From Desulfonatronum lacustre DSM 10312 (GTDB lineage: Bacteria; Desulfobacterota; Desulfovibrionia; Desulfovibrionales; Desulfonatronaceae): 64,000 bases of DNA. Position 1 is the stretch's first letter. Each line of letters begins with the position of its first letter. The translations under genes and the position numbers were made by a program. The notes below the pieces were generated by a model. The model made no database searches. It was given only the letters and a program-made list of their open reading frames with translations, and was not told where the DNA came from. Shown here piece after piece: positions 5,114 to 57,745 of the stretch. Location of the stretch: contig NZ_KI912608.1 of the NCBI RefSeq assembly GCF_000519265.1, positions 2,265,313 to 2,329,312 of the forward strand, written 5' to 3'.

Positions 5114-5257
5114 TATCGAAATCGAATCGAAATTGGAATTGATGTCCAAACAAGCCTGTTGTCAGGCCTTGTGACGAGTTTACTTCTAGCCGATTTTGAT
5201 CACGATTTCGATACCGATCCGAATAGCCCGTGAGAATCGAGAACGAATTCGCCCTGG
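5114..5257. repeat. Six-base-periodic inverted repeat, GAAATC type (copy A1)
   Basis: The left arm at 5114-5143 carries ATCGAAATCGAATCGAAA; the right arm near 5191-5218 carries CGATTTTGATCACGATTTCG. The two are roughly complementary. The right end GAACGAATTCGCCCTGG (5241-5257) resembles the right terminal repeat of copy A4. A matching left terminus is not clear, so this copy looks eroded. Confidence 0.55.
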
Positions 5258-17575: not shown

Positions 17576-17585
17576 CAGGAGGCCC

Positions 17586-17792
17586 CAGGGCAGATTTGCA
17601 CTCTGTAACATCTTCATAATACGAGAACATTAGACAGCTTGATGTTCAAAGTGCATCCCCATGGGGCACCAGCATACGTCGAAATTAAAATCGCTCTCTA
17701 AATCGGAAAGTTGTCAGAAACCGATTTCAATCATGATTTCGATTTGGATACCGACCAGATAACGTGTATGAGCCGAAATCAAATTAGCCCTG
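17586..17792. repeat. Six-base-periodic element, GAAATC type, with terminal repeats (copy A2)
   Basis: The ends CAGGGCAGATTTG (17586-17598) and CAAATTAGCCCTG (17780-17792) form a terminal inverted repeat with two mismatches. Inside, CGAAATTAAAATCG around 17680-17693 faces CGATTTCAATCATGATTTCG from 17722. The arms are more degenerate than in copies A3, A4 and A6. The element fills the gap between rdgB and the amidase gene. Confidence 0.6.
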
Positions 17793-17993
17793 CAGGAGGC
17801 CCGGTAACCCCTTGACTTCAGGGCTAATGATGGTCACTTTGAAGTGCGCGACTGCCATTGGCGGTCCTTCCCGGCATCTTTGCAGCTTTTCTTGCCGCCA
17901 TTCCGAGTCCCGGTCCTGCAACGATTCGTTGTCGCGGCCCGTTTCACAACCCCGATCTTACATCAGAATCTCTTCAGACACGCCGAGGCGCCC

Positions 17994-22803: not shown

Positions 22804-22975
22804 GTAACTACTCAGCACAGAGGAATTCTGTTGCCGGGGTCGGAATCGGGATCGGGATCGGGATCGAAAACGCTGGGATGCGTTCTAAATTCTTCCTGTT
22901 CGATTCCGACTCCGATACCGACCCCGACACCGATTGCCGGAGCAAGATCGGACACAAAATGTACTGAGTAGTTAC
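22804..22975. repeat. MITE-like element with GGNATC-type periodic arms (copy B1)
   Basis: The element starts GTAACTACTCAG and ends CTGAGTAGTTAC. Together with flanking bases the inverted repeat is perfect for 22 bases (22794-22815 and 22964-22985). Inside, GTCGGAATCGGGATCGGGAT from 22840 faces GATTCCGACTCCGATACCGA from 22902. Its reverse complement matches copy B2 (57555-57745) over nearly the full length, including the non-periodic centre. The right flank contains the stop codon of the deacetylase gene. It fills the gap between that gene and the photolyase gene. Confidence 0.85.
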
Positions 22976-33581: not shown

Positions 33582-33653
33582 ATCGAAATCGCTATCGAGA
33601 TCGAAATCGTTTTCTGACAAGCTTTCGATTTCGATTTCGATAGCGATTTCGAT
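33582..33653. repeat. 28-bp-arm hairpin of six-base-periodic sequence (copy A3)
   Basis: The arms at 33582-33609 and 33626-33653 are complementary at 27 of 28 positions and consist of GAAATC/GATTTC-type hexamers with one CTATCG variant in matching places. The loop is 16 bases. It lies about 80 bases upstream of the substrate-binding protein start and just after budA. Confidence 0.9.
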
Positions 33654-41101: not shown

Positions 41102-42244
41102 TCACGGACAGTAGCCTTCCTTACGGGCAAAATCCAGGGTCGTGCAGCGGCCCAACGCGCAGGCCGCGCGCAGATCGTCGCATCCTTGGGCCAGTTGACC
41201 GAGTTGCAGAAGGACCACCCCGCGGTTGTTCAGGGCCCCGTAATTGTCCGGTTCCAGGCGGATCACCCGGGTGTAATCGTCGATGGCCTGGGAATACTGC
41301 TCCAATTCCTGGTGCGCCAGGCCGCGTCCCAAAAGGGCCTGGGGATGATCGGGCTCCCGGCTCAAGGTCTGGGTAAAGTCGGCCACGGCCCGTTGATGAT
41401 CCGCAGCCAAAGCGTACAACGAGGCTCGGTGAAAGTGAATCAGCGCATCTCCAGGGGCCAAGCGTAAGGCAGTGTTGAAATCGTCCAGGGCGGAACGCAG
41501 ATCGCCCTGAGCGCCGTAGGTCAGCCCTCGCTCCATGTAGGCCGGAGCGGTGGGCTCAAGGCGAATGGCCCGCGTCAAATCGGTCAAAGCCGGGTCCAGC
41601 CGCCCCAGTTCCCGCAAACTCTTCCCTCGCCCAAACAGGGCTTCGGCGGACTCCGGCGCCAACGACGCGGCCACGTCGAAATCGGCCAGGGCCTGTTGGT
41701 GATTGTCCCGTTCCAGATACAGCCGCCCCCGGTACAGGCGGCCTTCCAGATGGTTCGGGGAGGCCCGCAACAACCGGCTCAGCTCCTCCAGAGCGCGGTT
41801 GAGGTCTCCGGCTTCCAGACGGGCCCGAGCCAGTCCGAACAAAGCCTCTTCATTCTCCGGAGCCAATTGGACCGCCTGCTCGTAATCAGCCGTGGACCTA
41901 GCCCAATTGCCCATCCGGGCGTAGGCTTCTCCGCGCAGCTTCAGGACCGTGGGATCGCCCGGGGCCAAGCGCAGGGCTTGGTCCAAGTCCACGATGGCCC
42001 GTGGGAAGGATCGATTGGACATGTGCCGCTGAGCCCGGGCGATGTACAGCGCGGCGTTATGCGGATCATCGCTGATGGCCTGGTCCAATTCGTCCAGGGT
42101 CATGTTTGCGGCCGCGTCCGGAATGGCCGTGAAGGCCCGGTCCACGACCGGCGGAGCCAGCAGGAAAAGGCAGGCTGCCAGGACAAGAAAGAGGGAACGA
42201 AAAGGAGGGCGAAAAAAGAGTAGCGAAGATGTACCTTGATGCAT
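41102..42244 (-). CDS. Exported TPR-repeat protein
   Basis: A 380-residue protein with an N-terminal signal or anchor (SLFLVLAACLFLLAPPVV) followed by about nine tetratricopeptide repeats from residue 48 on. Typical 34-residue units are visible, for example RAIVDLDQALRLAPGDPTVL and SALDDFNTALRLAPGDALIH. Three cysteines occur near the C-terminus. TPRs provide protein-protein contact surfaces; the partner is unknown. It lies immediately upstream of the NtrC-type regulator gene on the same strand, 39 bases apart. Confidence 0.88.
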   Translation of the reverse strand: MHQGTSSLLFFRPPFRSLFLVLAACLFLLAPPVVDRAFTAIPDAAANMTLDELDQAISDDPHNAALYIARAQRHMSNRSFPRAIVDLDQALRLAPGDPTVLKLRGEAYARMGNWARSTADYEQAVQLAPENEEALFGLARARLEAGDLNRALEELSRLLRASPNHLEGRLYRGRLYLERDNHQQALADFDVAASLAPESAEALFGRGKSLRELGRLDPALTDLTRAIRLEPTAPAYMERGLTYGAQGDLRSALDDFNTALRLAPGDALIHFHRASLYALAADHQRAVADFTQTLSREPDHPQALLGRGLAHQELEQYSQAIDDYTRVIRLEPDNYGALNNRGVVLLQLGQLAQGCDDLRAACALGRCTTLDFARKEGYCP

Positions 42245-42332
42245 GGAAAAACTCAGGAGCGTTTCCGAGGGTTCGACAAAAGAAGAACTTGCCGTAGCGA
42301 GAGGAAAAATGCAAACCCGCGCGCCCCTCGGA

Positions 42333-42486
42333 CAGGGCAGATTTGTTCTCGATCCTCACCCGCTATCTCAATCGGCATCGAAATCGAAATCGTGATCGAA
42401 ATCGACGGAGTGGTGCACAGTGCTTTCCGATTTCGATCGCGATTTCGATAGCGATTTCGATTTTTGATGAGAACGGATTTGCCCTG
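42333..42486. repeat. Six-base-periodic element with 18-bp terminal repeats (copy A4)
   Basis: The termini CAGGGCAGATTTGTTCTC (42333-42350) and GAGAACGGATTTGCCCTG (42469-42486) are complementary at 15 of 18 positions. Inside, ATCGAAATCGAAATCG from 42377 faces CGATTTCGATCGCGATTTCG from 42428. This is the best-preserved GAAATC-type copy and defines the family ends. It lies between lolA and the TPR gene. Confidence 0.85.
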
Positions 42487-42500
42487 GCCGCCCGGAAATA

Positions 42501-43157
42501 TTACCGTACCAGAACCCCTTTCGGCGGCGTGAAATCAAACAGCGTGGGCTCCAAGTCCGGATCGAGACGCAGGTTGTGCAAGGTAACCTGGTTGATATTG
42601 CCGTAAAAATCCACGGCCAGGACCTGCTGCAACAAGAACGTTTCCGGATCGACCCGGATCGTGGCCTCCACCAGGCTGGGCTCCGGAACACGGGGCCGGA
42701 GACGGATCACCGTGGCGGCTGTATCCTCGGCCAAGTCCACCTCGGTCAGAAAATCGTCGTCCAGGCGGGCCTGCCCGGAGAGGATCTTCAGCACCGTGGC
42801 CGAACCGAGGACGTCCTCCACGGCGTAGCGATACGCGATTTCCTCGTCCTCGAAATAGTTCCAGACCACTTCGGAACCGACGATGAGCAGTTCCGGTTCC
42901 GGACTGACGGTTTCCCAACGGATCAGCCCGGGATGCCGGAAATACAGGACTCCCCGACGCTCCTCGCTCTCCCGGCTGGCGGCCACCGTCAGTTCCTGGG
43001 TAAACTCGGCCTGGAACGATTGGATGGATTCATACCGACGCTGAATTTTTTCAACGATCCCCTCCTCCGCTTGGGCCGCCGGGGCCGCGCCCACCGCACC
43101 CCAAAAAATGGCCGCCAGTCCGACAATCCCTACGAAAGCTCGAAAAAAATGGCCCAT
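42501..43157 (-). CDS. lolA: LolA-family outer-membrane lipoprotein carrier
   Basis: A 218-residue periplasmic protein with signal peptide (FVGIVGLAAIFWGAVGAAPAAQA). The mature part begins IVEKIQRRYESIQSFQAEFTQEL, a LolA signature, then GVLYFRHPGLIRWE and the VWNYFEDEE strand. LolA shuttles lipoproteins from the inner-membrane LolCDE complex to the outer membrane. Length is normal. It lies 46 bases downstream of pyrR. Confidence 0.9.
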   Translation of the reverse strand: MGHFFRAFVGIVGLAAIFWGAVGAAPAAQAEEGIVEKIQRRYESIQSFQAEFTQELTVAASRESEERRGVLYFRHPGLIRWETVSPEPELLIVGSEVVWNYFEDEEIAYRYAVEDVLGSATVLKILSGQARLDDDFLTEVDLAEDTAATVIRLRPRVPEPSLVEATIRVDPETFLLQQVLAVDFYGNINQVTLHNLRLDPDLEPTLFDFTPPKGVLVR

Positions 43158-45319: not shown

Positions 45320-45407
45320 GCATCGAAATCGGTCTTGGGCGAAAAATTTTCAATGCATGGTCAGGGTGAGCTTTTTTCGATGTCGATTTCGATAGCGATT
45401 TCGATTG
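45320..45407. repeat. Eroded six-base-periodic element (copy A5)
   Basis: A short left arm CATCGAAATCGG near 45321 faces a longer right arm TCGATTTCGATAGCGATTTC from 45383. The arms are unequal and no clear termini remain. It lies in the divergent ald-copA gap. Confidence 0.5.
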
Positions 45408-48622: not shown

Positions 48623-48788
48623 ATCGAAATCGAAATCGAAATCGCGATCGAAATCGAAACCTCATCCATGAAGATGACGTCATCACAGGGTGATGAACAG
48701 TATTTTCCGATTTCGATTTCGATTCCGATTTCGATTTCGATTCCGATTTCGATTTCGATTCCGATTTCGATTTCGATCGCGATTTGGA
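48623..48788. repeat. Six-base-periodic element with 18-bp tandem units (copy A6)
   Basis: The left arm (48623-48659) is GAAATC-type hexamers; the right arm (48705-48788) is its inverse and contains four near-exact tandem units of 18 bases, CGATTTCGATTTCGATTC, at 48708-48779. The centre CAGTATTTTCCGATTTCG resembles the centre of copy A4. The right arm is over twice as long as the left, as if tandem units expanded. Confidence 0.85.
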
Positions 48789-52020: not shown

Positions 52021-52209
52021 AATACCATTTCCAATTCAAAGCTTCTCTTTCGGTATCGGTATCGGTATCGGCATCGGGGTCGAATTAGGATTATTGGCGA
52101 ACAAACAGTATCTATCCCGATCCCGATCCCGATCCCGATACCGACGCCGATCCCGATAACTGCATTTTCTCAAGCGAATAACGCATTGCCGAAGTAGAAT
52201 TGGTATAAC
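52021..52209. repeat. Six-base-periodic element, GGTATC type (copy C)
   Basis: The left arm (52051-52082) is CGGTAT hexamers with CGGCAT and CGGGGT variants; the right arm (52112-52159) is CCGATC hexamers ending in CCGATAC. Short outer sequences ATACCA and TGGTAT are complementary. It lies between convergent genes. Confidence 0.75.
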
Positions 52210-57554: not shown

Positions 57555-57745
57555 TGTAACTACTCAGTACATTTTGTGTCCGCTCTTGCTCCGGCAATCG
57601 GTATCGGGGTCGGCGCTTCGCTATCGGAGTCGGAATCGAAACATGAAGAATTTAGAACGCATCCCAGCGTTTTCGATCCCGATTCCGATCCCGATTCCGA
57701 TTCCGACCCCGGCAGCAGAATTACTCTCTGTGCTGAGTAGTTACA
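57555..57745. repeat. MITE-like element with GGNATC-type periodic arms (copy B2)
   Basis: The ends TGTAACTACTCAG (57555-57567) and CTGAGTAGTTACA (57733-57745) are exact inverted repeats. The left arm has GGTATC, GGGGTC, GGAGTC and GGAATC hexamers; the right arm GATCCC, GATTCC and GACCCC. The non-periodic centre (AGAATTTAGAACGCATCCCA at 57647-57666) is identical to copy B1 read in reverse. An extra CGCTTC hexamer sits in the left arm. It follows the rpsI terminator. Confidence 0.85.

Follow-up and report, generated by a model that had tools for sequence, protein, structure and literature searches.

A decayed ISAs1-type MITE beside lolA and the one-handed hexamer stem it shares with unrelated elements

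Between a lolA-like gene and a TPR-repeat gene of Desulfonatronum lacustre lies a short repeat, here called A4, in which two arms of six-base units face one another inside inverted ends. What kind of element is this, and what holds its arms in phase? We studied A4 within the window, the whole 64,000-nucleotide stretch of DNA that was analysed (Table 1). Its 18-bp termini (CAGGGCAGATTTGTTCTC and GAGAACGGATTTGCCCTG) are complementary at 15 of 18 positions and the units of its ATCGAA/TTTCGAT arms are spaced by exactly six bases, both as the first-pass annotation of this DNA had described. The phased hairpin pattern ATCGNNATCGNNATCG-N(12-42)-CGATNNCGATNNCGAT gives eight overlapping matches at three places in the window (33582, 42371 and 52061) and none in 100 dinucleotide shuffles of it. 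A genome-wide motif search for hexamer words and termini, which that annotation had proposed, gave counts far above reversed controls: across the 3.76-Mb genome CGATTTCGATTTCGAT occurs 95+101 times versus 0+0 for its reversed control, and the end CAGGGCARATTTGTTCTC, with up to three mismatches, 46+53 times versus 0+1. A BLAST search of A4 against its own genome returns 121 match rows.

The annotation had also tied A4 to five other spots with common hexamers and had given the same ends to those at 5114 and 17586. The copy at 17586 does have both ends, and only the right one is kept at 5114; the hexamers recur as a phased hairpin at 33582, but the spot at 45320 holds a single CGAT array only. 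The likeness of A4's centre to that of another copy is seen at 48623. What had been missed is the transposon nature of A4, with its 10-bp target duplication and empty site, together with window elements that have arms of the same kind and different ends (around 22804-22975, 52050-52157 and 57674).

Table 1. Coordinates of A4, its neighbours and related repeats in the window.
Feature	Position	Strand	Remarks
A4 MITE	42333-42486 (G000:C1:2307645-2307798)		154 bp
A4 left target-site copy GCCCCTCGGA	42323-42332	+	Identity with right copy 8/10
A4 left terminal inverted repeat CAGGGCAGATTTGTTCTC	42333-42350	+
A4 5' arm	42371-42404	+	Six phased ATCG units; spacers GC, AA, AA, TG, AA
A4 stem loop	42405-42427	+	Resembles centre of 48623 copy
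A4 3' arm	42428-42461	+	Six phased CGAT units; spacers TT, CG, TT, AG, TT
A4 right terminal inverted repeat	42469-42486	-
A4 right target-site copy GCCGCCCGGA	42487-42496	+
lolA-like gene	42501-43157	-	PF03548 LolA, 100.5 bits; stop 14 bp from A4
TPR-repeat gene	41102-42244	-	TPR families; opposite side of A4
Second ISAs1-type MITE	17586-17792		Both ends present; perfect 10-bp duplication CAGGAGGCCC at 17576-17585 and 17793-17802
Degraded copy	5115-5256		Right end alone kept (5239-5256)
Copy with expanded 3' arm	48623-48783		18-bp super-period; right end decayed, no intact end pair; centre resembles A4's
Phased ATCG hairpin	33582-33653		No ISAs1 ends
Single CGAT array	45378-45405		No long partner arm; no ISAs1 ends at the 45320 spot
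MITE of a different family, ends GTAACTACTCAGCACA	22804-22975	+	8-bp duplication GATTAATC; stem of the same kind
Third phased-stem repeat	52050-52157		Outer ends near TAATACCATTTCCAATT, by eye only
3' arm of a further copy of the 22804 family	57674-57711		CGATCC/TC type

A4 is an ISAs1-type MITE that inserted between lolA and the TPR gene and has since decayed, a reading that follows from ends like those of ISAs1 elements, a 10-bp target duplication, an empty site and many copies. That it is a non-autonomous element, inserted near lolA and moved by a transposase supplied in trans, we consider highly probable (roughly 0.93). Pairing of the ends (at most four mismatches, three variable positions being free or A/T) found 33 elements of 142-250 bp in a 574-kb sample of the own genome that was partly picked around known copies and is not a census. 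Their 10-bp flanks are identical at 244 of 330 letters, versus 95.9±9.4 after reshuffling (maximum 130 in 2000). The sums for the same 33 copies are 84/264 versus 75.2±6.6 at 8 bp and 97/297 versus 82.7±7.2 at 9 bp; the 11-bp sum (137/363 versus 103.1±8.7) is above the null but far below the 10-bp sum. At least nine of the ten duplicated letters are kept by 15 of the 33 copies, with fewer than nine in the remaining 18. A4's own duplication has decayed to the 8/10 given in Table 1, and that of the 17586-17792 copy is intact at 10/10.

The lolA-like neighbour of A4 has a match in each of seven genus mates, and in one of them, G007, the protein is 90% identical. G007 presents the empty site: its intergenic DNA aligns on both sides, without A4 and one target copy, and departs from a perfect match by a 2-bp gap and single changes. 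The alignment scores 181 when the element and one target copy are removed and 171 when the element alone is removed. A4 thus combines the features of a MITE, being short (154 bp) and multicopy, with an empty site, a duplication of fixed length and ends in common with ISAs1 insertion sequences. It is neither a stand-alone simple repeat nor a structural RNA; as a simple sequence repeat it fails because the two free bases of each unit (NN) vary while RTCG is fixed, and because the ends and the duplication are fixed as well. The puzzling repeat can thus be understood as an inserted transposon, for which there are an empty site and a candidate helper enzyme. In the mechanism that we propose, an ISAs1-family transposase, supplied in trans, would recognise the 18-bp ends, and insertion with a 10-bp stagger would give the target duplication, with A4 landing a short way downstream of lolA in the lineage that led to this genome. 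At the orthologous site in another species of the genus, G003 (L291), the lolA-TPR intergenic space holds an independent ISAs1-type MITE that has the same ends but no stem.

Such ends and duplications of 8-10 bp are typical of ISAs1 elements. The own genome, searched for the transposase families PF13808 (ISAs1) and Y1_Tnp, has no PF13808 protein (0/1), so activity here has probably ceased or is low, and we infer mobilisation in trans. Across the own genome and 100 relatives, PF13808 occurs in 11 of 101 genomes (8 above the cut-off), and in 3 of the 7 genus mates. ISAs1-family elements of about 1.9 kb, one in a genus mate and two in a second family of the order, have ends that match the A4 type with 0-4 mismatches. 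The one in the genus mate G007 (L069, 744-2656) lies between CAGGACGATTTTATTCTC and CAGGGCAAATTTGTTCTC; its right end matches CAGGGCAAATTTGTTCTC with no mismatch, its left end has 4 mismatches in 18 positions, and no target duplication is present at this locus. The two in G033, of the other family (L072 and L084), span 747-2662 between CAGGGCCAATTTATGCTC and CACGGCAAATTTGTTCTC and have perfect 10-bp duplications (CCCCTTGCCC and GGTATCTGTT), with one mismatch in the right end; left ends across all three loci have 3-4. Among the other loci of the 14 scanned at up to three mismatches, L078 has one end and the remainder none.

In L069 and L084 the gene is split over two frames, the first with a DruA domain (PF14236) and PF13808, the second with PF01609. 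Their second halves score 129 and 137 bits with the ISAs1 model NF033564, versus a cut-off of 70, and the first halves alone score 38.3 and 44.6 bits, below that cut-off. In both elements (L069 744-2656, L084 747-2662) the DruA domain is fused ahead of the transposase N terminus, and the catalytic part lies in the second frame. PADLOC gave no match.

The chassis of A4 is of a known kind, and, as far as our searches go, a handed hexamer stem common to unrelated MITEs is undescribed. ISAs1-family MITEs have their ends and 10-bp duplications in common with the A4 family; several same-ended MITEs of relatives have other interiors, whereas 32 of the 33 own paired copies carry the phased-hexamer interior (by CGATTT/AAATCG count). 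A MITE in hupL of Candidatus Thiomargarita (PMC4853749), about 205 bp long from its coordinates and described with 19-bp inverted and 10-bp direct repeats, has the dimensions of an ISAs1-type MITE, a likeness of description rather than of sequence; its authors, in the part of the paper available to us, report no parent in ISfinder. In the main text of a 2024 review of prokaryotic MITEs (PMC10969869), as far as it was available, the words ISAs1, IS66, hairpin and tandem repeat do not appear, and a word search of the available part of a short-tandem-repeat survey found no passage on these repeats. The hexamer words retrieved only two human-cell papers from open-access full texts, neither of them relevant, which leaves absence in print unproven.

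The stem can be separated from its chassis in both directions. Genus mates and a second family of the order have same-ended elements without the CGATTT stem (e.g. L038, L044, L055 and L059), so the stem is probably unneeded for mobility. L048 and L059, both of G046, have similar ISAs1-type ends and arms of the AAATTCGAAATTCGAA type, and L059 is flanked by CTATAGGCGG on both sides. In the own genome, a 250-bp element at G000:C1:2801215-2801464 has ISAs1-type ends and no CGATTT hexamers, and forms a strong long palindrome (-130.7 kcal/mol).

The stem also occurs in other chassis. For the second MITE family of the window (ends GTAACTACTCAGCACA), the 8-bp flanks of the 11 of 14 copies in which both ends were found are identical at 73 of 88 letters, versus 30.7±6.5 by chance (maximum 61 in 2000), with no duplication signal at 6, 7, 9 or 10 bp. 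A MAG titled Desulfobacteraceae has the stem in elements ending in GGCATCCTTCAT and GGGCTTGGTTCT, with 8-bp duplications. Of 129 cross-phylum hairpins, 110 have full flanks; ends together with a duplication of at least 5 bp were found around 15 of these, versus 0 of 544 reshuffled; among the 12 listed with a duplication of at least 7 bp, 7 come from that one MAG and 3 more have the same two kinds of ends. A 464-kb sample of the own genome, consisting of 20 evenly spaced 20-kb stretches and the window, contains 18 direct hairpins (7 of them inside ISAs1 end pairs), 18 single arrays and no everted hairpin. In the GC-rich genome G336, comparison of flanks up to 60 bp from 25 distinct hairpins finds nothing in common (none of 1225 end pairs at a local score of 14); either, therefore, no single MITE with recognisable ends gave rise to them by copying, or they have grown too old for this to be seen. 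By eye, several of the G336 hairpins (L297-L316, L337-L356) stand shortly after a gene stop, in DNA where gene calling is unreliable because antisense frames are open.

The stem has the form 5'-(RTCGNN)n–loop–(NNCGAY)n-3'. The first-pass annotation had called six-base phasing in both arms unusual, and this is borne out: among all 256 tetramers at periods 5-9, only ATCG and its overlapping frames stand out. ATCG at period 6 forms 25 inverted phased arrays in the own genome (464 kb) and 21 in G336 (400 kb), with the overlapping frames TCGG, TCGA and TATC also found and CGAT-first arrays numbering 0 and 1; the other inverted arrays are two of GTGA (period 7) and one of GGCC (period 9), all in G336. 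The arrangement is one-handed. Eleven genomes chosen without regard to direction give 402 direct matches (199 in G000 and 139 in G336), which overlap and so represent fewer hairpins, versus a single everted match, in G336. Among 40 named genomes that were selected for a direct hairpin, and in which direct matches were uncounted, 4 contain the everted form, at 5 sites in all. The free bases are handed too: with 40 organisms represented by a single hairpin each, the commonest pairs of the 5' arm are AA (28), CT (26), GG (25), GT (24) and GA (14), and of their complements only AG (2) is within the ten commonest. TG is additionally used in the own genome.

The tetramer is the most conserved part of the element. 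In alignments of 18 of the 23 copies of the T2 subfamily (five with divergent or doubtful ends were omitted by eye) and of all 10 A4-type copies, the RTCG/CGAY columns are 95.3% and 95.8% identical, figures that alignment by repeat phase inflates, versus 74.9% and 78.1% for NN, 87.3% and 80.9% for the transposon ends and 72.6% and 77.2% for the rest. A walk along the phase finds 116 of 150 and 114 of 134 interior units intact. Of 382 cross-phylum 5' units, 378 have T, 377 C and 373 G in TCG, counts that are high partly by construction since the matrix followed TCG/CGA chains, and the first place is A in 349 and G in 20.

The pattern is not universal: of 395 genomes that represent the phylum, 38 contain four-unit CGATNN arrays, and 11 have at least 10 matches; G000 has 587 matches, G336 288 and G439 212, versus 0-2 for the reversed pattern. 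In a collection of named genomes at least 120 stretches match the hairpin pattern, and among the matches listed, assigned to phyla by record name, are titles of Chromatiaceae, Desulfobacteraceae, Desulfuromonadales and Thermoanaerobaculales as well as Planctomycetota, Verrucomicrobia, Kiritimatiellota, Lentisphaerae and Chitinispirillaceae. A collection of viral contigs gave no stretch with the pattern. The set of 40 organisms used above excludes one row, L110, by eye a coding P-loop gene.

Is the paired structure itself what is conserved? If so, the stem might be a structural or regulatory RNA, REP-like or an mRNA 3' element, and a structural RNA was one of the roles suggested in the first-pass annotation. 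A4 does fold well as RNA, with z scores of -8.5 on the plus and -5.4 on the minus strand. The arms do not covary, however: RNAalifold on 18 copies of the T2 subfamily, the kind of covariance analysis that had been proposed, shows a double change in 1 of 35 consensus pairs and a covariation term of +0.44. The NN pairs of own arms match at 47 of 82 positions, below the 52.5±2.4 of swapped arms. Outside the own genome the match is weakly above chance, at 41/119 versus 32.6±3.4 (22 of 2000 shuffles as high), in G336 it is 32/71 versus 23.1±3.7 (26 of 2000 as high), and in the 129 cross-phylum hairpins 139/347 versus 104.2±7.3 (maximum 130 in 1000); in one of these tests hairpins less than 200 bp apart were merged. 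The numbers of units in the two arms are uncorrelated, with rho of -0.03 in 27 own hairpins, 0.24 (p 0.13) in the 40 organisms and -0.03 in 20 of G336; the arm rule admitted 22 hairpins of the 33 own elements to the NN test and 27 to that of unit number. What is conserved is therefore not just base pairing, since the arms of own copies show no covariation of sequence or of unit number.

The genomic setting also speaks against an RNA. The larger subfamily has no strand preference (11/23), so that a strand-specific RNA finds no consistent strand, even though 8 of 10 A4-type copies favour the plus strand. Of 36 own arrays, 19 lie between tandem, 8 between divergent and 6 between convergent genes and 3 inside genes, a context like that of intergenic gaps in general (120/41/36 tandem/divergent/convergent, by our own gene caller), so placement in this genome has no terminator-like bias. 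Rfam has no match at A4. Taken with the fold of A4, these results make an RNA function of the stem improbable. REP sequences with GTAG or CGTC tags, 20-40 bp long and in the GTAG case tied to tyrosine (RAYT) transposases, resemble the present repeats as high-copy intergenic palindromes of many phyla with a directional hairpin, in the portion of the source available (PMC3733652); they differ in that the elements here are larger and have ISAs1 or other ends. A REP/RAYT element was rejected on size and ends, and five 3-kb loci around Y1_Tnp genes contain neither the ends nor CGATTTCGAT/ATCGAAATCG.

A purely mutational origin would make the arms hexanucleotide microsatellites, grown by slippage and kept symmetric by hairpin-templated repair, with no selection. 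Unit number does change by whole hexamers between aligned copies, as slippage predicts and as expected from the slippage tolerance that the first-pass annotation had attributed to the hairpin, and hexamers were presumably gained and lost in this way. Local expansions, such as that at 48623, fit the same process, as does the slight excess of NN matches outside the own genome. Slippage, however, copies whole units, but neighbouring units differ in NN and keep RTCG; under templated repair the NN of the two arms should match, yet they are below the swapped-arm value in the own genome and only weakly matched elsewhere; and neither process predicts a handedness of 402 to 1 or the choice of one tetramer. 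Slippage thus explains gain and loss of units, but not why the tetramer is fixed, why the pattern is handed or why it recurs in unrelated elements, and we regard it as unlikely that the arms are no more than microsatellites. BrickBuilt, a MITE of Porphyromonas gingivalis that is also found in P. gulae, likewise has a tandem-repeat core, IS-like ends and intergenic positions; its unit is 23 bp and, in the part of the paper available, is not described as inverted, whereas that of the present stem is 6 bp, inverted, one-handed and found in several phyla (PMC4596501).

There remains a one-handed hexamer pattern that recurs in unrelated MITEs of several phyla and is explained by neither slippage nor base pairing. 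The constraint appears to act on the sequence of each arm and its direction toward the loop, not mainly on pairing, and would hold the RTCG/CGAY tetramers nearly constant while the intervening two bases drift. Our preferred guess is a widespread host factor that recognises RTCG arrays in DNA or RNA form, and we think that such recognition is the likeliest unproven explanation, with a mutational generator as the main alternative. Reverse-complementing the hairpin leaves its handedness unchanged, so either strand could be read, as DNA or RNA. A protein-binding array or a DNA cruciform, the other two roles raised in the first-pass annotation, may each apply. That the stem is a sequence-specific module, bound by a conserved factor and repeatedly captured by unrelated MITEs, has a substantial chance of being right, if less than an even one. 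It would account for the same handed grammar in unrelated chassis and in 40 organisms (one hairpin each), for the G336 hairpins without common flanks and for RTCG as the most conserved part. We suggest more tentatively that a one-handed code is read by a widespread factor, that mobile elements converged on it or traded it, and that some genomes keep bare hairpins. Should a factor read the pattern, transposon biology and genome organisation would be tied to a new recognition code, and these stems would be recognised repeats of a new class, directed from base to tip.

Against recognition by a conserved factor stands the uneven distribution noted above, since the arrays are not universal in the phylum and, of two array-rich genomes, G439 (212 array matches) has only 3 hairpins that satisfy the loop limits and G346 (29 array matches) has none. 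In G346, two loci (L335 and L336) consist of very long mixed CGATNN/CGACNN arrays with no compact hairpins, possibly a relative or an ancestor of the stem.
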